From positions 1-64,000 of the forward strand of contig JBBFLF010000015.1 of assembly GCA_037481655.1 (NCBI GenBank): a DNA stretch of 64,000 bases, in the 5' to 3' direction. The position numbers and the translations under genes were made by a program. This document shows, piece after piece, positions 12,330 through 26,605 of this stretch (its first letter is position 1; every line of letters starts with the position of its first letter). Source of the DNA: Desulfobaccales bacterium. Lineage in GTDB: Bacteria; Desulfobacterota; Desulfobaccia; Desulfobaccales; 0-14-0-80-60-11. The notes under the pieces were generated by a model that had not been told where the DNA came from, searched no databases, and saw only the letters and a program-made list of their open reading frames with translations.

Positions 12330-13406
12330 ATGTCCGCCTCAGTTGACTCGGACGCGAGTTCGGGAAACAATAGAGGCATGCCTTCCCAAGAAGCCGACCT
12401 CCAAGTCAAGCCAAGAGCCTCAGTTCTGCGGCGTCTTCCGCTGGTGGTCCTGCTCCTCCTTCTGGCGGGGGGCGGCCTGTGGTGGTGGCAACGCCACAGC
12501 CTCCCCCAAGAGAGGGGCCTGCGCCTCACCGGCCACATCGAAGCCACCGAGACCCACCTGGGCTTCAAGGTTCCCGGCATCATCGCGGCCATTTATTTTG
12601 AGGAAGGTCAGGAGGTCCGAGCCGGGCAACTGGTGGCGGAGCTGGATGACCAGGACCTCAAGCAGGAGCTGGCCGCGGCGGAAGCCCGGCTGGCCGCCGC
12701 CCGGGCCAACCTGGCCCGGCTGGAGGCGGGCTACCGCCCCCAGGAGGTGCGGGAGGCCCAGGCCGCCGTGGGTCAGGCCCAGGCCGACTATGACGACAAG
12801 GAGCGGGAATTCCGGCGCTTTCAGGCCCTCTTTGAGCGCCGGGTGGTCGCCGCCCAGACCCGGGACCGGGCCGAAGCCGCCTTCCTCATGGCCCAGGAGG
12901 CCCTGAAGCGGGCCCAGGAGCGTTACGACCTGGTGCGCTCCGGGTTCCGAAAGGAGGACATCGAGCAGGGTCAGGCCGAGCTCCGGCAGGCCGAGGCGCA
13001 GCGGGAGCTGGCCCACACCCGTCTGGGCTACGCCCGCATCACCGCGCCGGTCACCGCCATCGTGCTCTCCCGGCCGGCGGAACCCGGCCAGGTGGCCCAG
13101 GTGGGGGCCACCGTTCTCACCCTGGGGGACCTGGACAACCTCTGGTTTGAAGGCTGGCTGCCGGAAACCCAGCTCGGGCAAGTGCGCTACGGCCAGAAGG
13201 CCCAGGTGACCACTGACTCATACCCGGGCAAGATCTACCCCGGCTGGGTCTCCTACATCGCCAGCAAGGCCGAGTTCACCCCCAAGATGGTGGAGACCTT
13301 CAAGGAGCGGGTCACCCTGGTCTACCGCACCAAGATCCGGGTGGAGAACCCCAACTACGAGCTCAAGCCGGGCATGCCGGCGGAGGCGGTGATCCTGCCG
13401 GAGTGA
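12330..13406 (+). CDS. HlyD-family periplasmic adaptor (YbhG-like)
   Basis: The protein has 358 residues. A single membrane anchor (LPLVVLLLLLAGGGLWWW) lies at residues 36-53. Next come the first barrel half (THLGFKVPGIIAAIYFEEGQ), a long coiled-coil hairpin (about residues 110-230, Ala/Glu/Arg-rich) and the second half (ARITAPVTAIVLSRPAEPGQ). The C-terminal part contains WFEGWLPETQLGQV and ELKPGMPAEAVILPE, close to YbhG-type adaptors. ATG 12330 has no clear ribosome-binding site; ATG 12378, preceded by agagg, is an alternative that keeps the anchor. It is the first gene of an ybhGFSR-like operon. Confidence 0.85.
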   Translation: MSASVDSDASSGNNRGMPSQEADLQVKPRASVLRRLPLVVLLLLLAGGGLWWWQRHSLPQERGLRLTGHIEATETHLGFKVPGIIAAIYFEEGQEVRAGQLVAELDDQDLKQELAAAEARLAAARANLARLEAGYRPQEVREAQAAVGQAQADYDDKEREFRRFQALFERRVVAAQTRDRAEAAFLMAQEALKRAQERYDLVRSGFRKEDIEQGQAELRQAEAQRELAHTRLGYARITAPVTAIVLSRPAEPGQVAQVGATVLTLGDLDNLWFEGWLPETQLGQVRYGQKAQVTTDSYPGKIYPGWVSYIASKAEFTPKMVETFKERVTLVYRTKIRVENPNYELKPGMPAEAVILPE

Positions 13407-13528
13407 GAGCGCCGGCCAAGGCTTTTGGGTTCGTTCTGCCCAATCTTTGCCGCTGGCCTGGCGGCACCCGGAGGGCAGGGAAGCAGAAATGCCTTGACCC
13501 TGCCCCGGCCCCCCAACTGGAAACGCCG

Positions 13529-14470
13529 ATGCAACCCATCATTGAGGTTCAGGGTCTGACCAAGGACTTCGGCCGCTTCCGGGCGGTGGACGGGGTGAGC
13601 TTCACGGTGTATCAGGGGGAGATCTTCGGTTTTCTCGGCCCCAACGGCGCCGGCAAGTCCACCACCATCCGCATGCTTCTGGGGCTGCTGCGGCCCAGCG
13701 GCGGCACCGGCCGGGTGGCAGGGTATGACCTAATCAGGGAGCAGGCCCGCATCAAGGCGAACGTGGGCTACATGTCCCAGCGCTTCAGCCTCTATGAGGA
13801 TCTCACCGCCGAGGAGAACCTGGAGTTCTTCGGCGGGGTCTACGGCCTCCCCGAGGAGCGCCTGCGGACCCGGATCGCCGAGGTGCTGGAGCTGGTGGGG
13901 CTGACGGCGCGACGCCGGGACCTGACCCGCACCTTGGCCTTGGGCCTGAAACAGCGGCTGGCCCTGGCCTCCGCCATGCTCCATGAGCCGCCCCTCCTCT
14001 TTTTGGATGAGCCCACCAGCGGCGTGGACCCCGTGGCCCGGCGCACCTTCTGGGACCTGATTTATCACCTGGCCTCCCAGGGGGTGACGGTCCTGGTGAC
14101 CACCCACTACCTGGATGAGGCGGAGTTCTGTGACCGGCTCATCCTCATTTCCCAAGGCCGGCTCATCGCCCAGGGCACTCCCCGGGAGCTGAAGGCCCAG
14201 GTGACGGATCGCCTCCTGGCGGTCTATCCCGATCCCGAGCGCTTGTCGGAGGCCCTGGCCGCGGCCCGGGAGATCCCCCAGGCCACCGAGGTGGCGGTCT
14301 TCGGCGCCGGCCTGCACGTGGCCTTTCCTCCGGAGGAACAGGGAGAGGCGCTCCTGGCCCAGGCCCTGGCGGCCCGGGGGGTGAAGATCCGGGAGCTCAA
14401 GCCAGTGTCCCCCACCCTGGAGGACGCCTTCATCGCCCTCACCCGCCGGGCCTCCCAGCACACCTCATGA
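13529..14470 (+). CDS. ABC transporter ATP-binding protein (drug/export type)
   Basis: The protein has 313 residues. Walker A is LGPNGAGKSTTIRML, the Q-loop region YMSQRFSLYEDLTAEENL, the signature LALGLKQRLALASAML, Walker B LLFLDEPTSGVDP, and the switch histidine TTHYLDEAEFCD. A C-terminal extension of about 80 residues with LLAVYPDPERL and PTLEDAFIALTR is usual in DrrA/YbhF-type exporters. ATG 13529 is chosen because the nucleotide-binding domain starts right after it; sequence upstream in frame has no domain character. Unlike E. coli YbhF it holds one nucleotide-binding domain, so it should act as a dimer. Confidence 0.88.
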   Translation: MQPIIEVQGLTKDFGRFRAVDGVSFTVYQGEIFGFLGPNGAGKSTTIRMLLGLLRPSGGTGRVAGYDLIREQARIKANVGYMSQRFSLYEDLTAEENLEFFGGVYGLPEERLRTRIAEVLELVGLTARRRDLTRTLALGLKQRLALASAMLHEPPLLFLDEPTSGVDPVARRTFWDLIYHLASQGVTVLVTTHYLDEAEFCDRLILISQGRLIAQGTPRELKAQVTDRLLAVYPDPERLSEALAAAREIPQATEVAVFGAGLHVAFPPEEQGEALLAQALAARGVKIRELKPVSPTLEDAFIALTRRASQHTS

Positions 14471-15600
14471 ACCTGCAGCGCACCCTGGCCGTTTTTCGCA
14501 AGGAGTTCATCCACATCAAACGGGATCCCTCCAGCCTGGTGCAGGCCATTCTCCTGCCGGTGATGCTCCTGTTGCTCTACGGCTACGCCCTCACCTTCGA
14601 CATCACCGAGGTGCCGGTGGCGGTCTGGGACCGGGAGCAGAGCCGGGCCTCCCGGGAGCTGGTCAACCGCTTCGGGGCCTCCCGCTACTTCACCGTGGCC
14701 TACCAGGTCCAGGGCTCCGAGGAGATCGCCCGGCTGCTGGACCGACGCCGCATCTGGCTGGCCTTGGTGCTGCCCCACGATTTCTCCCGTTATCTGGAGA
14801 CCGGAGAGCCGGCGCCGGTGCAGGCCATCGTGGACGGCACCGACGCCAACACCGCCAATATCATCTTGGGCTATGTGCAAGGAGTGCTGGCCGAATACAG
14901 CCGGGAGGTGGCGCAAAACCGCCTCCGGGCCCGGGGGTTTGACCGGCCCCTGGTGGAGCTCAAAAGCGAGGTTAGGGTGTGGTTCAATGAGGACCTGGAG
15001 AGCAGAAACTACATCGTCCCCGGCCTCATTGTGGTCATCATGACCATGGTGGGCTCGCTCCTCACCGCCCTCACCATCGTCCGGGAACGGGAGCGGGGCA
15101 GCATGGAGGGGCTCATTGCCACCCCCTTGAAGAAATGGGAGCTCATCTTCGGGAAACTGGGCCCCTACTTCCTCATCGGCATGGTGGACATGTTCATCGC
15201 CCTGGGGATGGGGAAGTTCCTCTTCGATGTGCCCTTGCGGGGCAGCGTCCCCCTCCTGATCGTGCTGTCCGCCCTCTTTCTGGTGGTGATGCTGGGCCAG
15301 GGGCTCCTTATTTCGGTCCTGTCCATCAACCAGCTCCAGGCCTACCAGATGGCCACCCTGTTCACCTTCCTGCCGGCGTTTCTGCTTTCCGGCTTTGTCT
15401 TTGCCATCAAACAGATGCCCCCGGCCCTGCAGCTGGTGAGTTATCTGGTGCCCTCCCGTTATTTCGTCACCATCTCCAAGGGCATCTACCTCAAGGGCGT
15501 CGGGCTCGCTCTGCTGTGGAGCGAGGTGCTGATCCTCCTGGCCTTTGCCGTCTTCTTTCTGGTGACGGCCCAGCGCCGGCTGGTCAAGAAGATCCGCTAA
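14467..15600 (+). CDS. ABC-2 type transporter permease 1
   Basis: The protein has 377 residues. RTLAVFRKEFIHIKRDPSSL at the N-terminus leads into a first membrane segment and then about 150 residues outside the membrane. Five more membrane segments follow, with the ABC-2 signature region RERERGSMEGLIATPLKKWE between the second and third. The segment SYLVPSRYFVTISKGIYLKG near the end is typical of YbhR/YbhS. It starts in an ATGA overlap with the ATPase stop codon. It should form half of the membrane channel with the next gene product. Confidence 0.87.
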   Translation: MNLQRTLAVFRKEFIHIKRDPSSLVQAILLPVMLLLLYGYALTFDITEVPVAVWDREQSRASRELVNRFGASRYFTVAYQVQGSEEIARLLDRRRIWLALVLPHDFSRYLETGEPAPVQAIVDGTDANTANIILGYVQGVLAEYSREVAQNRLRARGFDRPLVELKSEVRVWFNEDLESRNYIVPGLIVVIMTMVGSLLTALTIVRERERGSMEGLIATPLKKWELIFGKLGPYFLIGMVDMFIALGMGKFLFDVPLRGSVPLLIVLSALFLVVMLGQGLLISVLSINQLQAYQMATLFTFLPAFLLSGFVFAIKQMPPALQLVSYLVPSRYFVTISKGIYLKGVGLALLWSEVLILLAFAVFFLVTAQRRLVKKIR

Positions 15601-15650
15601 GGGCGGCCGAGGGACGCCTAGTCCCGGCCCTGTCCCAAGGAGCGCAAGGG

Positions 15651-16781
15651 ATGCTGAGACGACTGCGACGCATGGTGAAAAAGGAGCTCATCCAGGCGCT
15701 CAGGGACCCGCGCCTGAGGCTCTTCGTCATCCTGCCGCCCCTGATCCAGCTCATCATTTACGGCTATGCCATCAACTTCGACCTGAAGAACATCGACACC
15801 GGGGTGCTGGACCAGGACCTGAGCCGGGCCAGCCGCCAGCTCGTGAGCCGTTTTGCCGCCACCGAATATTTCGCCGTGAACCATTTTCTCCGGGAGCCGG
15901 GGGAGATCAGCCAGCTCATGGACCGTAACCGGGTGACCCTGGTCGTGCGCTTTGCCCAGGATTTCGGCCGGGAGCTGGCCGGCGGCCGGCCGGCCCGGCT
16001 GCAGCTCATCCTGGATGGCACCGACTCCAACAGTGCCCTGGTGGTGGCCCGCTACGCCGCCCAGGTGCTGGCGGACTATCAGGAGGAGCTGGCCGCGGCG
16101 CGGCTCAGTGCCCTGGGGCTGCCCCCGGAGCTGGCCCGGCCGGTGCGCCTGGAGCCCCGGGCCTGGTTCAATGAGAACCTCATCAGCCGCTGGTCCTTTG
16201 TGCCCGGGGTCATCGCCATGGTGGTCATGCTGGTGAGCCTGATGCTCACCGCCCTGGCGGTGGTGCGGGAAAAGGAGCTGGGCACCATGGAGCAGATTTT
16301 GGTGACGCCCTTGCGGCCGCTGGAATTTCTTTTGGGGAAGACCATCCCCTTTGTGCTCATTGCGCTGCTGGACGTGGTGCTGGTGACCCTGGTGGGGATC
16401 TATTGGTTCGAGGTGCCTTTCCGGGGCAGTCTGGCGGTGCTCTTTTTGGGGACGCTCTTTTTTCTCTTTAATTCCGTGGGCCTGGGGCTGCTCATCTCCA
16501 CGGTGTCCGCCACCCAGCAGCAGGCCATGATGGCGGGCACCTTCTTTTTTACGCCGGCCATTCTCTTGTCCGGGCTGGTCTTCCCCCTCCGCAACATGCC
16601 CGAGGCGGTGCAGTATCTCACCTATCTCAACCCCTTGCGGTATTTCATCATCATCATCCAGGATGTCTTCCTCAAAGGGGTGGGCCTGGAGGTGCTCTGG
16701 CCTCAGATGCTGGGCCTGGGGCTCCTGGGGTTGGCCCTGCTGACGTTCAGCGTGCTGCGCTCCCAGCGGCATCTGGGGTAA
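15651..16781 (+). CDS. ABC-2 type transporter permease 2
   Basis: The protein has 376 residues and is a paralogue of the preceding permease. RRMVKKELIQALRDPRLRLF is followed by a membrane segment, a large outside domain, then five segments with REKELGTMEQILVTPLRPLE. The closing part, LTYLNPLRYFIIIIQDVFLK, is also shared. The ATG is preceded by aaggag (15637-15642). It lies 50 bases after permease 1 and ends the operon. Together with the adaptor and ATPase it resembles the YbhGFSR exporter of E. coli; the substrate is unknown, and no TolC-like gene lies in this second operon. Confidence 0.87.
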   Translation: MLRRLRRMVKKELIQALRDPRLRLFVILPPLIQLIIYGYAINFDLKNIDTGVLDQDLSRASRQLVSRFAATEYFAVNHFLREPGEISQLMDRNRVTLVVRFAQDFGRELAGGRPARLQLILDGTDSNSALVVARYAAQVLADYQEELAAARLSALGLPPELARPVRLEPRAWFNENLISRWSFVPGVIAMVVMLVSLMLTALAVVREKELGTMEQILVTPLRPLEFLLGKTIPFVLIALLDVVLVTLVGIYWFEVPFRGSLAVLFLGTLFFLFNSVGLGLLISTVSATQQQAMMAGTFFFTPAILLSGLVFPLRNMPEAVQYLTYLNPLRYFIIIIQDVFLKGVGLEVLWPQMLGLGLLGLALLTFSVLRSQRHLG

Positions 16782-17047: not shown

Positions 17048-18403
17048 ATGCCTGTCAGATCACGCCTCTTTCCAGCCGCCCTCACCCTGGCGGTCCTCTT
17101 CGCCTTCCTGGCGTCTCTCTTAGGGACCGGAGTCCCCGGCCCGGCCGAGGCCGGCAAGGGCGGGAAACCCAAACCCGGCGGCTCCGGCCACCACGGGGTC
17201 ACCACCTATGAGGGCAGCGCCACCTGCAAGCAGTGCCACAGCAACAAGGTGCAGGAGGTCCTTAACTCGGAACACTATAAGTGGGCCGGAAAGCTGGGAA
17301 AAATCAATGACTTCTGCACCTACCCCGACATCAACTGGCTGCAGCAGATCGCCGTCACGGCCCCCGACGGCACCACGAAAAACACTGTCACCGGCTGCGC
17401 CTCCTGCCATGTGAGCTATGGGGACTTCACGCCGCCGGCGGTGGGCGGCACCATGCCGGTGCAGGAGGACAAAATCGACTGCCTCATCTGCCACTCCGAC
17501 GCCTACAAGCGGGTGGGCACCCTGGTGAACGGCAAGCCCGCCCTGGTCATGGACCCCAGCCTCAACCCGGCCACGGTACTGGCGGCCATCAAAAAGACGC
17601 CCTCGGCCCAGGCCTGCCTGAATTGCCACGCCCGGGCCGGCGGGGGCAATGCCATCAAGCAGGGCGACCTGGAGCTGGCCATGGCCAACCCCGCCTTCGA
17701 CCTGGACGTGCATCTGGCCAGCTCTGCCGTGGGCGGGGCCGGGCTGAACTGCATCTCCTGCCACACCGTGAGCACCCACAAGATCGCCGGCAAGGGGAAC
17801 GACCTCCGGGTGGCGGAGGGGAGCGGCCTGAAGACCTGCGTCACCTGCCACGGCACCGCGCCCCACGGCTCCGGCAACCTCAACAAGCACTACAGCCGGG
17901 AAAAGCAGCCCCTGGACTGCACCGTCTGCCACATCCCCAGCTACGCCCGGGGTCTGCCCACCGAGACCCGGCGGGATTTCAGCGTCCCGGCGGAGTTCGA
18001 CCTGGCCGTGGGCCGCTGGGAGCCCCTACGCACCCTGGGGGAGGATCTGCTGCCGGTGTGGCGCACCTGGAACGGCACCTCCTTCTTCTATAACCTGGGC
18101 ACCGCCATCAGCGGCGACACCCTCACCCTGGCCGGCCCCAACGCCGGCACCCGGCTCTACCCCTTCAAAGTGCACACCGCCCGCATGGCGGTGGACCAGG
18201 CCAACCGGCTCATCCCCCTGAAATCCGCGCCCTTGTGGAGCCGGGGGGACCTGAATCTGGCCCGGGTTCAGGGCGAGCTGGAGGTCTTCGGGAACAATCT
18301 CACCAGCGTGCGCTTCGTGGAGGCCACCCGCTATTTCGGCCTTTACCACCAGGTGGCTCCCAAGGACCAGGCCAAGCAGGTCTGCGCCCGCTGCCATAGG
18401 TAG
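17048..18403 (+). CDS. Octaheme c-type cytochrome, tetrathionate reductase family
   Basis: The protein has 451 residues and a signal peptide (LTLAVLFAFLASLLGTGVPG). Eight CxxCH heme sites begin at about residues 60, 117, 145, 190, 235, 264, 291 and 446. There is no CxxCK site, which argues against NrfA-type nitrite reductase. The early segments SEHYKWAGKLGKINDFC and PDINWLQQI followed by CASCHVSYG resemble Shewanella OTR, which reduces tetrathionate, nitrite and hydroxylamine in vitro. It is periplasmic, with no membrane anchor beyond the signal. A strong aggaggag precedes the start. It is the first gene before a [NiFe] hydrogenase and is probably its electron partner. Confidence 0.82.
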   Translation: MPVRSRLFPAALTLAVLFAFLASLLGTGVPGPAEAGKGGKPKPGGSGHHGVTTYEGSATCKQCHSNKVQEVLNSEHYKWAGKLGKINDFCTYPDINWLQQIAVTAPDGTTKNTVTGCASCHVSYGDFTPPAVGGTMPVQEDKIDCLICHSDAYKRVGTLVNGKPALVMDPSLNPATVLAAIKKTPSAQACLNCHARAGGGNAIKQGDLELAMANPAFDLDVHLASSAVGGAGLNCISCHTVSTHKIAGKGNDLRVAEGSGLKTCVTCHGTAPHGSGNLNKHYSREKQPLDCTVCHIPSYARGLPTETRRDFSVPAEFDLAVGRWEPLRTLGEDLLPVWRTWNGTSFFYNLGTAISGDTLTLAGPNAGTRLYPFKVHTARMAVDQANRLIPLKSAPLWSRGDLNLARVQGELEVFGNNLTSVRFVEATRYFGLYHQVAPKDQAKQVCARCHR

Positions 18404-18489
18404 ACTTTTCTAGTATGTTTTTCCCGGCTCCGGGAGATGACCTCGGAGCCGGTTTCTGATGGCCCTATTCACCCCCAAAGGAGGAGCCC

Positions 18490-19386
18490 ATGCCCATCAG
18501 TCGCCGTGATTTTCTCAAATACTGCAGTGCCGCGGCCGCGGCTCTGGGGCTGAGCGGCACGGATCTGCTGCGGCTGGAGCAGGTCCTGGCCGACCCCACC
18601 GCGCCCACGGTGCTCTGGCTGCACGGCAGCAGCTGCTCCGGCTGCTCCGTGTCCTTCCTCAATTACATCGCCGCCAGCGACCCCACCGACCCCGGCGATA
18701 TCCTGCTGAGCCACATCAACCTGGCCTACCATCCGGTGCTCATGGCCCCGGCGGGTCTGCCGGCCTATCAGGCGGCCGAGGCGGCCTACGCCCAGGGGAA
18801 CTATGTCCTGGTGGTGGAGGGGGCGGTGGCCACCCAGTACAGCGGCCGCTGCTGCTGGCCCTGGGCCAACAGCACCGGTGAGGAGGAGACCTTTCTGGCC
18901 GTGGTGACCCGGTATGTGAGCAAGGCCGCCCAGGTGGTCTGCGCCGGCAGTTGCTCGGCCTTCGGCGGCATCCCCGCCGCCGGCAGCAACCCCACCCTGG
19001 CCAAAAGCGTCCAGGCGGTGACCGGGAAGGCCACCCTCAATATCCCCGGGTGCCCCTGCCACCCCAACTGGCTGGTGTGGGCCCTGGTGCAGATCCTTCT
19101 GGGCAAGAGCATCAGCAAAGACAGCTTCGGCCGGCCCACTGCCCTCTTCGGCAGCAAAGTGCATGACAAGTGCCCCCGGAAGGGCAAACCCAAGGATGCG
19201 ACCCTGGGCGGCAGCGGCTGCCTGCGGGATCTGGGCTGCCGGGGGCCGGATACCGAGGCCAACTGCCCCCTGCTGAAGTGGAACAACGCCCAGAGCTGGT
19301 GCATCGAGGCCAACGCCCCCTGTTATGGCTGCACCGAGCCCGGCTTTCCCGGAAGCACCCCCTTTTACAAGTTTCCTGCCGGATAA
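18490..19386 (+). CDS. [NiFe] hydrogenase small subunit, Tat-exported
   Basis: The protein has 298 residues. A twin-arginine signal (SRRDFLKYCSAAAAALGLSG) opens it. Cysteines C49 and C52 (SSCSGCS), AGSCSAFGGIP and IPGCPCHP form the proximal [4Fe-4S] site. HDKCPRKG with LRDLGCRGP, then the run CPLLKWNNAQSWC and PCYGCTEPGF, hold the distal and medial clusters. The product moves electrons from the active site to an outside partner. There is no C-terminal membrane anchor, so the enzyme should be soluble in the periplasm or held by another protein. It begins 86 bases after the octaheme gene with aggaggag. Confidence 0.92.
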   Translation: MPISRRDFLKYCSAAAAALGLSGTDLLRLEQVLADPTAPTVLWLHGSSCSGCSVSFLNYIAASDPTDPGDILLSHINLAYHPVLMAPAGLPAYQAAEAAYAQGNYVLVVEGAVATQYSGRCCWPWANSTGEEETFLAVVTRYVSKAAQVVCAGSCSAFGGIPAAGSNPTLAKSVQAVTGKATLNIPGCPCHPNWLVWALVQILLGKSISKDSFGRPTALFGSKVHDKCPRKGKPKDATLGGSGCLRDLGCRGPDTEANCPLLKWNNAQSWCIEANAPCYGCTEPGFPGSTPFYKFPAG

Positions 19387-19423
19387 GTTTGCATCCTGGC
19401 AGCTCAGCCAAGGAGGATGACCC

Positions 19424-20911
19424 ATGCCCAAAGGGAAACCCAAACCGCCGCCGACCCCGACCAGTACCGTCCGGATCATCGACCCGGTGACCCGGATTGA
19501 GGGCCATCTGCGCATCAGCGTCACCCTGACCCCGGACGCCACCGGCAAACTGGTGGTGAGCGACGCCCAGTCCACCGGCACGCTGTTTCGGGGCTTCGAA
19601 AATATTCTGGTGGGCCGGCATCCCTGGGACGCCCAGCATATCACTCAGCGCATCTGCGGAGTCTGCCCGGTGTCCCACGGTATGGCCGCGGTCCTGGCCC
19701 TGGATGCCGCCTCCCAGGTGACGGTGCCGGCCAATGCCCGTATCATGCGCAACCTGGTGATGGGCGCCAATCTCATCGACTCCCACATCCTGCATTTTTA
19801 TCACCTGACCCTGCCGGACTATGTGACCCCGCCGGCCATGAACATGCCACCCTGGAACACCGACTGGGTGCATGACGAAAGTTTCAGCGACAGTGAGGCC
19901 AACACCCTGGCGGCCCATTACCTGGAGGCCCTGAAAGCAAGGCGGCTGGCCCACGAAATGGGGGCCATCTTCGGAGGCAAGCTCCCCCACCCGCCGGCGT
20001 ATGTGCCGGGGGGCTTCACCACCACCCCCACGGCGGAGAAGCTCAGCCGCTTTGAGGCCTATCTCACTCAGGTTATTGATTTTATTAACAATTATTACAT
20101 CCCCGATGTGCAGTTCCTGGTGAGCCGCTACCCGGCCTACGACGCCATCGGCCAAGGCTACGGGAATCTTCTGGCCTTCGGCTGCTTCGAGGAAGGCAAC
20201 GGCAGCCTGTTTCTCAAGCGGGGTCGCCTCCCCTGGGGCAGCGCCACGGTGCAAGCGGTGGATGTCGGGAAGATCGCCGAGTTTGTGAAGTATTCCTGGT
20301 ATGCCGATGCCACCGGCGGCCTCACTCCGGCCGCAGGGGTCACCACGCCCGTGGATCCGGACAGCAAAACCACGGCCTATTCCTGGCTGAAGGCGCCCCG
20401 TTATGAGGGCGTGCCTTATGAGGCGGGGCCGCTGGCCCGCATGGTGGTGAACAATCTCTATCCCGCCGGCAAGGTGTCGGTGAATGACCGCCATCTGGCC
20501 CGGGCCTTTGAGGCCCTGGAAGTGGCGGAGCAGATGCGTCTGTGGCTCAACCAGCTCAGGAGCGGCTTGGGCCAGCCCACGTATGTGCGCCAGGCGGTGC
20601 CCCTGAACGCCGCCGGGGTGGGCCTCACCGAAGCCCCCCGGGGGGCCCTGGGCCACTGGCTGGAGATTACCAACGGCAAGATCTCCCGCTACCAGGTGAT
20701 CACCCCCACCTGCTGGAACGCCTCGCCCCGGGATGCCAACGGCCGGCGGGGTCCCTTGGAGGAGGCCCTCATCGGCACGCCGGTGGCCGATCCCGAGCGG
20801 CCGGTGGAAGTGCTCCGGGTCGTCCACTCCTTTGACCCGTGCCTCGCCTGCGCCGTGCATGTGCTTAGGCCTGAGGCCGGCCGGAAGATCTTTCCCGTGG
20901 CCCATGGCTGA
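19424..20911 (+). CDS. [NiFe] hydrogenase large subunit
   Basis: The protein has 495 residues. DPVTRIEGHLRI near the start is the family signature. The nickel ligands are in RICGVCPVSHG (C78, C81) and SFDPCLACAVH (C473, C476). The 16 residues after H479 form a C-terminal tail removed by the maturation protease once nickel is inserted; that protease gene follows. The enzyme has no signal of its own and is carried out with the small subunit by the Tat system. Apart from a Lys/Pro-rich first 15 residues, it has normal family length. It should split or form hydrogen in the periplasm. Confidence 0.93.
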   Translation: MPKGKPKPPPTPTSTVRIIDPVTRIEGHLRISVTLTPDATGKLVVSDAQSTGTLFRGFENILVGRHPWDAQHITQRICGVCPVSHGMAAVLALDAASQVTVPANARIMRNLVMGANLIDSHILHFYHLTLPDYVTPPAMNMPPWNTDWVHDESFSDSEANTLAAHYLEALKARRLAHEMGAIFGGKLPHPPAYVPGGFTTTPTAEKLSRFEAYLTQVIDFINNYYIPDVQFLVSRYPAYDAIGQGYGNLLAFGCFEEGNGSLFLKRGRLPWGSATVQAVDVGKIAEFVKYSWYADATGGLTPAAGVTTPVDPDSKTTAYSWLKAPRYEGVPYEAGPLARMVVNNLYPAGKVSVNDRHLARAFEALEVAEQMRLWLNQLRSGLGQPTYVRQAVPLNAAGVGLTEAPRGALGHWLEITNGKISRYQVITPTCWNASPRDANGRRGPLEEALIGTPVADPERPVEVLRVVHSFDPCLACAVHVLRPEAGRKIFPVAHG

Positions 20912-21389
20912 GCGGCAGAGGCCCAAAAGGGGGCGGCCGCCCCGGGTGCTGATCGCCGGGTTGGGGAACCTGCTCCTCCGGGATGACGGGGTGGGGGTGC
21001 AGGCGGTGCGGCTGCTGCAAGCCAAGCCGCCCTCCGGGGTGCTGGTGGCGGAGGTGGGGACCCAGGTGCTGGGGGCCCTGCATCTGTTGGAGTGGGCCGA
21101 CCGGGTGCTGGCCCTGGACGCCCTCATGGCCGGCGGGCCTCCCGGCACCATCTATGCCTGCCGGGAAAGCGACGTGGCCCTGGAGGCGGTCCAGGCCTCC
21201 CTGCATGAGCTGGGCCTGCGGGCGGCGCTGCACTTTCTGCCCCGCGAGCGCCGCCCGGAGGTCTTCATCTTGGGGCTGGAACCCGCCAGCCTGGAGCCGG
21301 GCCTGGAGCTCTCCCCGCCGGTCCAGGCGGCCCTGCCCCGTTTCCTGGAGCTGGCCCGGGACAGCGCCGCCCGCCTGCGAGGCTGGTAG
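20904..21389 (+). CDS. Hydrogenase maturation protease (HyaD/HybD family)
   Basis: The protein has 161 residues. GLGNLLLRDDGVGVQAVRLL near residues 19-38 contains the first metal-binding acidic residue. VLALDALMAGGPPGTIYAC holds the second, and SLHELGLRAAL the histidine. This endopeptidase clips the C-terminal tail of the large subunit after nickel insertion. Its ATG overlaps the end of the large-subunit gene by 8 bases, which supports a dedicated partner. It is the last gene of the hydrogenase operon. Confidence 0.85.
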   Translation: MAERQRPKRGRPPRVLIAGLGNLLLRDDGVGVQAVRLLQAKPPSGVLVAEVGTQVLGALHLLEWADRVLALDALMAGGPPGTIYACRESDVALEAVQASLHELGLRAALHFLPRERRPEVFILGLEPASLEPGLELSPPVQAALPRFLELARDSAARLRGW

Positions 21390-21547: not shown

Positions 21548-22549
21548 TCAACAGATGCGGGGCAAAAGCTCCCCGGCTGGGGACTCCAGCAGACGGGAGG
21601 TGCCCAGCCCGGTGCGCAGCACCACCCGCCCGGGCGGGCCTTCCAGCACCCGGCCGATGCGGGCGGCTTTCTCTCCGTAGGGACTCTGGCGCATAATCTG
21701 CAAAGCCGCGTCCGCCTGAGCCTCCGGCAGGACCACGATCATCTTCCCTTCATTGGCCACCTGCAGGGGCTCCAGCCCCAGGGCCTCACAGGCCGCGGCC
21801 ACCGCCGGGGTGATGGGGATACGGTCCTCCTCCACCTCGATGGCCACCTGGGATTGGCGGGCCAGCTCATTCAACGCCGCCGCCACGCCCCCCCGGGTGG
21901 GGTCCCGCATGGCATGGATGCTCAGCCCGGCGGAGAGCAATCCCAGCACCATGCCGGTCAGGGGCGCAGTGTCGCTTTGCAGCTCCACCCCCTCCAGCAG
22001 GCCTTCCCGGGCCAGCATCACCGTGGCGCCGTGATCCCCCACGGTGCCGGAGAGGAGCACCACATCCCCGGGCATGAGGGCGCTTCCGGAAATCCCGGGG
22101 CTAAGTATCTCCCCCACCCCGGCGGTGGTGATGAAGACCTGGTCCGCGGCGCCCCGGGGCACCACTTTGGTGTCCCCGGTGACGATGCTCACCCCGCACT
22201 CCCGGGCGGTGGCCGCCATGGAGGCGGTGATGCGGCTTAAGGTCTCCACCGGCAGCCCTTCCTCCAGGATGAAGGAAGCAGCCAAAGCCAGCGGCCGGGC
22301 CCCGGCGGTGAGAAGATCATTCACCGTGCCGGCCACCGCCAGGCGGCCGATGTCCCCCCCGGGGAAAAAGAGGGGCGAAACCACAAAGGAGTCGGTGGTG
22401 AAGGCCACCCGCCCGCCCGTGAGATGCAGGACGGCGCTGTCATCTGCGGCATAATCCGCCGGGCCGTAGGCAGAAAGGAAGACCCGCCGGATGAGCTCCC
22501 CCATCTCCCGCCCCCCCGCTCCGTGACTGAGCAAAATCACATCCATCAT
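21548..22549 (-). CDS. hypE: Hydrogenase maturation factor HypE
   Basis: The protein has 333 residues. VILLSHGAGGREMGELIRRV opens it, GAGG being the usual HypE start, followed by YAADDSAVLHLTGGRVAFTTD and SIVTGDTKVVPRG of the PurM-like fold. The protein ends in the invariant C-terminal PRIC, whose cysteine carries the carbamoyl group that becomes cyanide on the active-site iron. ATG 22549 (or 22546) is taken because the domain starts there; upstream in-frame sequence belongs to a repeat. It is the only hyp gene in the window and is bracketed by two copies of a palindromic element. Confidence 0.9.
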   Translation of the reverse strand: MMDVILLSHGAGGREMGELIRRVFLSAYGPADYAADDSAVLHLTGGRVAFTTDSFVVSPLFFPGGDIGRLAVAGTVNDLLTAGARPLALAASFILEEGLPVETLSRITASMAATARECGVSIVTGDTKVVPRGAADQVFITTAGVGEILSPGISGSALMPGDVVLLSGTVGDHGATVMLAREGLLEGVELQSDTAPLTGMVLGLLSAGLSIHAMRDPTRGGVAAALNELARQSQVAIEVEEDRIPITPAVAAACEALGLEPLQVANEGKMIVVLPEAQADAALQIMRQSPYGEKAARIGRVLEGPPGRVVLRTGLGTSRLLESPAGELLPRIC

Positions 22550-22581
22550 ATTCCGGTAGGAGATGATACGTGATAAGTTCA

Positions 22582-22703
22582 GGGAGAGGGGGCCAGGGGC
22601 CGTGGGCCCCTGCCCCCTTTCCCTGGCCTTCTCCCCCAACCCCTTGCAGGGGAGGGTGAGGGGAGGGCGGGGGAGCCACTGCTCCCCCGACCCTTCCCTC
22701 ACA
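22582..22703 (+). repeat. Two-hairpin GC-rich palindromic element, copy B
   Basis: The first unit (22582-22643) matches copy A and copy C at both ends. In its hairpin the loop-proximal pair is ggggcc / ggcccc, while copy C has ggggtc / gacccc. The second hairpin (ggggga ... tccccc) follows at about 22660-22690. Confidence 0.6.
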
Positions 22704-22779
22704 GCCATTTTACCAGCATAAAAGGGCGCTGTCAGGAGGCGGCCGCCCCCACAGCACGCCCACCTCGGGGAGGCAGCCC

Positions 22780-24157: not shown

Positions 24158-26605
24158 TCAGCCCGTCTGTCCCCCGGAGCTCCCTGCGAACCCCACCACC
24201 GCCGCAGCCGGAATCAGCGCCGCGTAGCAGAGGGCGCCCGCTGTCAAAGTGAGGCTGACGCCCCAGGCCAGCCCCAGGATGGCTGCGGCCCCGGCCGCCA
24301 GCACTCCCGCCGCGCCGTTGATCCCCCAGAACCAGGGGGTGGGCCGGGCATCCTGCTGCATCACCAGGCGCATGCCGGTGGGGAAGCCGCAGCCCATGAG
24401 GAGCCCCGCCGGGGCAATAATGGCCACGCTCAGCACCCCCCGCCAAAAGAGGGGAGTGCTTTCCGCTCCCGCCAACACTCCCGGCACCCATATCGGCAGG
24501 CTCCCCAGGTAGGCGGCGGTGAGGAGGGCCCAGACGAAAAGCCACCCCGGCCGGATGAGCGGCAAGGCCCCGGACAACAGGCTTCCTAATCCGGTGGTGA
24601 AGATGAGGCTGAAGAGCACCAGGCTGAGGCCATGGAAGGGGTGCCCCAGAAAGACCCCCAATCGCTGGAACAACCCGATCTCCACCATCATGAAGCCCAC
24701 CCCGATGAGGAGGAAATAGGCGGTGCCGCCGGCGATGAGCCTGGCCGGCACCTCCCGCACCGCCGGCCGCAAGGGCACGATGATGGTCAGGGTCACCAAA
24801 AACAAGGAGATCGCCAGGATCAGAAGCAGGGTAAAAGCGGCCAGGAAATTGCCCATCAGCGCCCCCCCGGGGGTGGACTGGCGGGCCAAGGGGAACCAGG
24901 CGCTGGGACGGTGAAAAGGCAGGTGGTTGAAAAAGAAAGGCCGGTCATCTGTGGGCGGCCGCACATCCAGGAGGAAGCTGGCGGAAAGTTCATCCAGGGC
25001 CTGACGGCTCCCTGCACCCAGAATGGCCTGCCAGGAGGGGGAGGCTGGCGGGTTGTGGGGATGCAACAACAGCCGGTAATCATACTCAAGCACCGCTTGC
25101 TCCAAAGCCGCCAAGTCCTGGGCTATCCAAGGTGAGGCGGCGATGAGCAGGGTGGCCATCTTGCCGCTGGAGACGGCAAAGAGATACTCCTTCGGGTCCC
25201 TGACGCCTTGCTCCAGCAGGGTGGCCACCGCTAGACTGAGGAGACGGCTGAATTCGTCCACCTCCCCGGGGCTGTACCAGCGGCTGACGCTGAAGACGCC
25301 TTTGGGAGTCAGGCGAGAAAGAAAGGTGCGCCAGGCCTCCACGGTGTAAAGCCCGTTTTCGCTGGTAGTAAAGCCGCCGGCGGCGTTGGCCCGCTCATCC
25401 CCCGCCAGGCTCATTTGGATGATGTCAAATGTCTCCGGGTTCCGGGTGAACCAGTTGCGGGCCTCCGCGGCCAAAAGGCGGACGCCGGGGAGGTGCGCCA
25501 GCCCGGCAAACCGGGAGATCTCCGGGTGCCGGGTCACCAGGTCCACCAGAATGGGATTGAGTTCCAGGCCGGTGATGTCCCGGCGGCCGAAGACCCAGGC
25601 GGAGAGCACATCCCGGCCGCCGCCGGCCCCCACCACCGCCACCCGGGGGCGTTCCGGGAGAAAGTAGGCCAGATTCACCACGTCATACTTTAGGAACTCC
25701 ACTTCCTCCACCCGGCCTCGGAAGGGAAACATCTGGGCGTCGGAAAAGCCATCAGACCGCAGAATGCGGTGTTCCACCTTCAGGTTAGCCGGCAGGCGGG
25801 ATGAGGGCCCCCACAACATGGGCTCCTCGCTATCCATCCGGTGGACGGTCACCCGGGAAAAGTAGTTCCATTTTTCCGCCACCAATTTGAAGGGATTGCG
25901 GCGCTCCAGATCATCCTTGACCACCAGTGGCTGCAGACCATAGACGGTGAGCCCGTTGAGGAGGGCAAAGGCGGCCAAAGGGAGAGCCAGCCTGAGGCGG
26001 TGGGCCAGCCAGGCGGCGGCCGGCGGCGGCGCTTCCGGCGAGCCCCCCAGCCCGGAGCGGGCAAAGAGGCCGCCGGCGGCGATGGCCAGCACTCCTAGCC
26101 AGAGCACCGCCGAGGGGCCGTCAGTCAGGCTGAGGAGGCCCAGCACCGCCAGGCAGCCCACCGCCGCTCCCACCATGTCCACGCCATAAACCCGGCTCAC
26201 CGGGAAGGGGCTCTGGGTGAGAGCGAGACTGACGGTAATACCGGAAAAGATATAGGGCAGGGCGAGGAACACCGCTAGCAGCAGCCAGGCCAGCAAGGCG
26301 GTGAGGGACAGGGACACGGTCACCGGCAAAAGCAGCTGGCCCACCAGGGAGAAGACCATGCTCACCCCGAAGGCGGTGCTGAAATATGCCAGGTAATAGG
26401 ACAGACGGGCGGCATAGCGCTCCTGGCAATAGTAGACCCACACTGCGCCTAAGGTGAGGCCGAACATGGCCATGCTGATGGCGAAAAAGGCCAGATGATA
26501 CCACAAGATGACAGAAAGGATTCTGGTCTCTGCCAACTGGAACATCAGAGTGCAGGCAGTGATCAGAAATACTCCGGCATAGAAAAAGAGGGAATTACTG
26601 TTCAT
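24158..26605 (-). CDS. Membrane protein with spermidine synthase-like domain
   Basis: The protein has 815 residues. About seven membrane segments come first (starting NSLFFYAGVFLITACTLMFQ). A soluble part then holds a Rossmann methyltransferase/aminopropyltransferase-like core: VAVVGAGGGRDVLSAW, ITGLELNPILVDLV and DIIQMSLAGDE, near residues 320-430. At least six more membrane segments close it. Such fused proteins are widespread in bacteria and have no established reaction; true spermidine synthases keep a different acidic pocket, so polyamine synthesis should not be assumed. Its start overlaps the stop of the preceding gene by 11 bases, linking it to the surface-polysaccharide cluster. Confidence 0.7.
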   Translation of the reverse strand: MNSNSLFFYAGVFLITACTLMFQLAETRILSVILWYHLAFFAISMAMFGLTLGAVWVYYCQERYAARLSYYLAYFSTAFGVSMVFSLVGQLLLPVTVSLSLTALLAWLLLAVFLALPYIFSGITVSLALTQSPFPVSRVYGVDMVGAAVGCLAVLGLLSLTDGPSAVLWLGVLAIAAGGLFARSGLGGSPEAPPPAAAWLAHRLRLALPLAAFALLNGLTVYGLQPLVVKDDLERRNPFKLVAEKWNYFSRVTVHRMDSEEPMLWGPSSRLPANLKVEHRILRSDGFSDAQMFPFRGRVEEVEFLKYDVVNLAYFLPERPRVAVVGAGGGRDVLSAWVFGRRDITGLELNPILVDLVTRHPEISRFAGLAHLPGVRLLAAEARNWFTRNPETFDIIQMSLAGDERANAAGGFTTSENGLYTVEAWRTFLSRLTPKGVFSVSRWYSPGEVDEFSRLLSLAVATLLEQGVRDPKEYLFAVSSGKMATLLIAASPWIAQDLAALEQAVLEYDYRLLLHPHNPPASPSWQAILGAGSRQALDELSASFLLDVRPPTDDRPFFFNHLPFHRPSAWFPLARQSTPGGALMGNFLAAFTLLLILAISLFLVTLTIIVPLRPAVREVPARLIAGGTAYFLLIGVGFMMVEIGLFQRLGVFLGHPFHGLSLVLFSLIFTTGLGSLLSGALPLIRPGWLFVWALLTAAYLGSLPIWVPGVLAGAESTPLFWRGVLSVAIIAPAGLLMGCGFPTGMRLVMQQDARPTPWFWGINGAAGVLAAGAAAILGLAWGVSLTLTAGALCYAALIPAAAVVGFAGSSGGQTG

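Follow-up and report, generated by a model that had tools for sequence, protein, structure and literature searches.

A 64-kb window of contig JBBFLF010000015.1 from a Desulfobaccales bacterium (GCA_037481655.1), the whole stretch of DNA analyzed here, carries the gene of a cytochrome resembling octaheme tetrathionate reductase (OTR), followed by the genes of a soluble [NiFe] hydrogenase. The original prediction joined the two into one system feeding electrons from hydrogen straight into the octaheme protein. On balance, we favor two separate periplasmic redox units that are neighbors in one lineage and are unlikely to form an obligate, dedicated H2:OTR pair. The gene order OTR, small subunit, large subunit was found only in the window genome and in one congener, G002; a second congener, G001, has OTR without such a hydrogenase. 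The hydrogenase blocks of other relatives lack OTR beside them, only one independent pair occurs among 170 further OTR loci, and published growth tests with Caldithrix also speak against the single-system claim. The dedicated-pair model is thus weak, and the adjacency more likely reflects a local arrangement than a dedicated H2-driven respiratory system. The genes and residues at issue are:

17048–18403, + strand: OTR-like octaheme c-type cytochrome, 451 amino acids, eight CxxCH (1sp3_A, E 2.5e-34; TIGR04315, 182 bits)
17315–17317, + strand: codon of C90, which aligns with Cys64 in Shewanella OTR
17657–17659, + strand: codon of K204, which aligns with Lys153, the heme ligand in Shewanella OTR
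18490–19386, + strand: [NiFe] hydrogenase small subunit (PF01058, Oxidored_q6; PF14720, NiFe_hyd_SSU_C; 2wpn_A, E 1.7e-52)
19424–20911, + strand: [NiFe] hydrogenase large subunit (PF00374, E 4.8e-127; NF033181, 563 bits, cut-off 600; 5jsu_B, E 6.7e-121)
20904–21389, + strand: hydrogenase maturation protease, HycI (PF01750, E 3.4e-17; TIGR00072, 110 bits)

All four genes lie where they had been predicted, in that order on the + strand and, again as predicted, with no gene for a cytochrome b or a membrane anchor among or next to them.

The octaheme cytochrome and the hydrogenase

The protein sequence of the cytochrome confirms eight CxxCH motifs (CKQCH, CASCH, CLICH, CLNCH, CISCH, CVTCH, CTVCH, and CARCH) and no CxxCK. 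A Sec-type signal peptide can be read at its N-terminus, and the gene is single-copy in the genome. Among solved structures, only Shewanella OTR (1sp3) is a convincing relative, with a match spanning residues 54–450. The alignment to TIGR04315 runs nearly end to end yet scores well under the curated cut-off of 375 bits, which makes the window cytochrome a divergent OTR homolog; judged by sequence, it belongs with OTR in the wide sense and is not filed as a TIGR04315 member. NrfA-type and eight-heme nitrite reductases were rejected as identities because the protein lacks CxxCK and, in the latter case, gives no significant match to the solved structures. An AlphaFold model has a mean predicted local distance difference test score (pLDDT) of 47, too low for use.

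When 14 OTRs, 1sp3 among them, are aligned (OTR residue numbers are counted along the chain), C90 falls on Cys64, which we take to be part of the Shewanella active site, and K204 falls on Lys153; both positions are invariant. The position of Asp150 is occupied by Asn in the window protein; the proposed active-site comparison with the Shewanella enzyme bears out Lys and Cys. Lysine is the established ligand of the OTR active-site heme (PMC12285233). In a wider set of 179 OTRs, Lys is present in all 177 rows readable at the Lys153 position, and the Cys64 position holds Cys in 147 of 178 readable rows and an in-frame TGA in 31. Homology to 1sp3 and the retained Lys and Cys bear out the assignment to the OTR family and make an OTR-type reductase plausible.

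The in-frame TGA codons occur at L028, L113, L174, and 28 other loci; the cultured organism Thermodesulfatator autotrophicus has the TGA form. The 51 bases starting at TGA fold more strongly than the corresponding bases of Cys loci matched for G+C (means of −17.1 and −11.4 kcal/mol, respectively). Of the 14 examples displayed, most have a hairpin of the type CTGGTGC-AGGT-GCACCAG ~20 bases downstream. These hairpins resemble selenocysteine insertion sequences (they are SECIS-like), and SelB scores above the cut-off in 34 of the 36 genomes checked, of both the Cys and the TGA kind. TGA at the active-site cysteine position thus probably encodes selenocysteine; one review, going by GenBank annotation, includes the family among selenoproteins, with no motif given (PMC13188914). 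Since every readable OTR has Cys or, by codon, selenocysteine at the Cys64 position, the pattern points to a central role of this residue, together with the Lys-ligated heme, in catalysis. It is a cleaner lead from the survey than the gene pairing.

The hydrogenase has features of a group 1 [NiFe] uptake enzyme: a small subunit with a twin-arginine translocation (Tat) motif, SRRDFLK, a nickel-binding large subunit, and a maturation protease. A C-terminal anchor helix is not seen in the small subunit and, among the features of quinone-linked membrane hydrogenases, a membrane subunit or anchor is missing from the window gene cluster. The periplasmic location predicted for both units is supported. 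The closest solved relative of both subunits is the Desulfovibrio vulgaris [NiFeSe] enzyme (2wpn_A, 5jsu_B). The large subunit has a Cys codon at the selenocysteine site (DPCLACAVH) and falls below the NF033181 cut-off; the sequence thus reads as the Desulfovibrio [NiFeSe] type in a form with Cys. The small subunit carries WC in place of the WP of standard enzymes, as in [NiFeSe] enzymes, and this motif suggests a [4Fe4S] medial cluster.

Small subunits of several family relatives (L032, L060, L061, and L062) end in one or two extra CxxCH motifs, e.g. LNCSGCHDDDDD, which may bind heme c at the electron exit; those of the window and G002 have no C-terminal CxxCH. The large subunits of the same four relatives extend past the usual cleavage motif in long His-rich C-terminal tails, which the window protein lacks.

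Linkage in the family and across OTR loci

The surroundings of the four genes include three elements, of which hypE and the exporter operon went unmentioned in the original prediction:

12330–16781, + strand: HlyD-ABC-ABC2-ABC2 exporter operon just upstream of OTR
18424–18452, + strand: 11-pair hairpin in the gap between OTR and the small-subunit gene, with a short T-rich run behind it, a possible weak terminator
21548–22708, − strand: hypE, hydrogenase maturation (TIGR02124, 423 bits), also located after the protease gene in family relatives

The hairpin resembles a terminator in the window; it was not scored in G002. In G001, which belongs to the same genus, hypE lies ~230 bases after OTR, the hydrogenase is missing there, and no close large subunit is found anywhere in this 99% complete genome. 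In G003, from another genus, the exporter operon adjoining OTR is the one also seen in the window, and a close hydrogenase was not found. G008, G010, and G016 have the hydrogenase, the protease, and a nearby hypE, with no OTR beside them. Upstream of their hydrogenase block, genes assigned by eye resemble an operon of resistance-nodulation-division (RND) efflux systems; still farther out, G008 and G016 have ABC2-like permeases, assigned in the same way. These two genomes carry OTR on another contig, in G008 after cytochrome bd oxidase genes. In this family, OTR and the hydrogenase thus both seem to lie next to one exporter block, and the two may have come into contact in the window genus as a side effect. 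Across the relatives, no conserved OTR neighbor that would name its electron donor was found.

We then scanned 2.59 Mb around 174 OTR loci (80 from named genomes, 80 regions from phylum genomes, and earlier ones) with profiles for group 1 hydrogenase subunits; many of the contigs are short, and some neighbors of OTR may therefore be cut off. A hydrogenase lies near OTR in three distinct genomes: the window genome, G002 (present twice, as L017 and L071), and L108, a groundwater deltaproteobacterial metagenome-assembled genome. Two changes on the OTR tree are needed to explain these neighbors. Small-subunit matches number 73 in 99 genomes, or ~0.23 per Mb if a mean genome size of 3.2 Mb is assumed; ~0.6 hydrogenase neighbors would then be expected by chance in the scanned sequence, and one was observed outside the window genus. 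OTR–hydrogenase linkage is thus about at chance level and does not mark a conserved H2:OTR system. A neighborhood survey for the same pair had been proposed as a check; it recovered the congener and L108, with Caldithrix already published, which comes close to the outcome named beforehand as refuting the prediction, the two units occurring together in no other genome. Viral contigs yielded no relatives, and plasmids carry only distant OTRs, in Paracoccus and Photobacterium.

Elsewhere in the window, 24158–26605 (− strand) encodes a membrane protein of 815 amino acids that matches no Pfam family at E 0.1.

Electron flow and competing explanations

The window genome contains dsrA (549 bits), and its host is probably a sulfate reducer. 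At L235 (G000:C4, 7269–13658) it encodes a 552-amino-acid HmcA-like protein with 16 CxxCH, followed by iron-sulfur, NrfD-like, and further membrane and iron-sulfur subunits, together an Hmc-like complex. It also has a second, separate hydrogenase with iron-sulfur and NrfD-like subunits. In Desulfovibrio, hydrogenases of the periplasm probably work mainly with cytochrome c3, the presumed electron source of Hmc and Tmc (PMC4215793), and Shewanella OTR interacts with a small tetraheme cytochrome, a promiscuous shuttle (PMC4484225).

Under the two-unit reading, the Tat-exported, [NiFeSe]-type hydrogenase with Cys for selenocysteine would oxidize H2 and pass electrons from its distal iron-sulfur cluster to the c-type hemes of a periplasmic cytochrome pool; the 16-heme HmcA-like protein and its membrane complex would carry them on, presumably to sulfate reduction. 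OTR would be a stand-alone reductase in which the Lys-ligated heme and the nearby Cys reduce a small oxyanion. By analogy with its homologs, tetrathionate would be the first choice of substrate and nitrite or hydroxylamine the second: a homolog from Beggiatoaceae reduced tetrathionate and nitrite in vitro (PMC6449678), and OTR homologs reduce nitrite and hydroxylamine (PMC4484225; PMC6449678). Because both units are soluble in one compartment, electrons from H2 can reach OTR directly or via the pool, and direct transfer that bypasses the quinones is possible. Were the two coupled, they would form a minimal two-enzyme, membrane-free route for H2 electrons onto sulfur or nitrogen oxyanions.

Several observations weigh against the two-unit reading. 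Only 87 bases separate OTR from the small-subunit gene in the window, with a shared direction, and G002 keeps both order and direction. L108 (JACRCN010000016.1, 408–4819) has an independent small subunit–large subunit–OTR order. Group 1 small subunits occur in 15 of 19 genomes with OTR vs 37 of 80 (p 0.012, uncorrected for kinship), and a stand-alone tetraheme c3, the usual shuttle, was not found with PF02085 in the window genome. Adjacency in two congeners, the L108 pair, and the published proximity in Caldithrix are what a dedicated soluble system would predict, in which the hydrogenase reduces OTR directly and tetrathionate, nitrite, or hydroxylamine is reduced without the quinone pool; the conserved active-site Lys and Cys and the missing anchor gene fit it as well. 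We nevertheless consider such a system unlikely: G001 keeps OTR where the hydrogenase is lost or absent, other members of the family have the two units unlinked, linkage over the 170 other loci does not exceed chance, and the respiration predicted for Caldithrix was not supported by growth tests.

A broader version, which we regard as quite unlikely, would have OTR joined independently by soluble hydrogenases of differing subtypes in no fewer than three lineages (the window genus, L108, and Caldithrix), each pair forming a quinone-free periplasmic H2:tetrathionate or H2:nitrite oxidoreductase, with the octaheme protein replacing the C-terminal small-subunit heme of relatives in the window lineage. 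That replacement could also make the octaheme protein an electron carrier for the hydrogenase and not a reductase here. The extra CxxCH on several relatives' small subunits, missing in the window and G002, and the failure to find c3 would suit a carrier, but the window protein retains the active-site Lys and Cys, like every other OTR, and G001 has no hydrogenase of this type to be served, which leaves this role very improbable. Equally doubtful is an OTR that has no connection with H2 and mainly detoxifies nitrite, hydroxylamine, or compounds related to them: the activities of the homologs (PMC4484225; PMC6449678) and the bd oxidase genes preceding OTR in G008 agree with it, but the relatives' OTRs share no common neighbor and the universally kept Cys or selenocysteine suits sulfur chemistry at least equally well. 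Two separate units remain our preferred reading, and the locus as it stands illustrates that adjacency in a single genome is a poor guide to partnership.

Comparison with known systems

Proximity of OTR and hydrogenase genes is not new with the window. In Caldithrix abyssi, otr was reported in 2017 near an uptake [NiFe] hydrogenase and H2-driven tetrathionate reduction was suggested, but the respiration of sulfur compounds that had been predicted found no support in growth tests (PMC5317091). As in the window, its Otr (Cabys_2302) is close to the hydrogenase (Cabys_2299–2297; PMC5317091); C. abyssi belongs to a separate phylum, however, and the genes, judged by locus tags alone, are near yet not directly adjacent. 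L108 resembles the window in that group 1 subunits and OTR point the same way and no anchor gene intervenes, but its OTR comes last, is a probable lipoprotein with ten CxxCH, and sits on a distant branch of the OTR tree, and its hydrogenase is of another subtype.

Like HysAB of D. vulgaris, the window hydrogenase is predicted to be a soluble periplasmic heterodimer with an extra Cys at the medial cluster; unlike HysAB, it has Cys for selenocysteine, and an OTR neighbor is not described for HysAB in the literature examined. The window OTR differs from that of Shewanella oneidensis (1sp3) in sequence (~30% identity), in Asn for Asp150, and in scoring below the TIGR04315 cut-off, but the two share eight CxxCH, a near full-length alignment, the Lys153 and Cys64 positions, and a soluble periplasmic nature.
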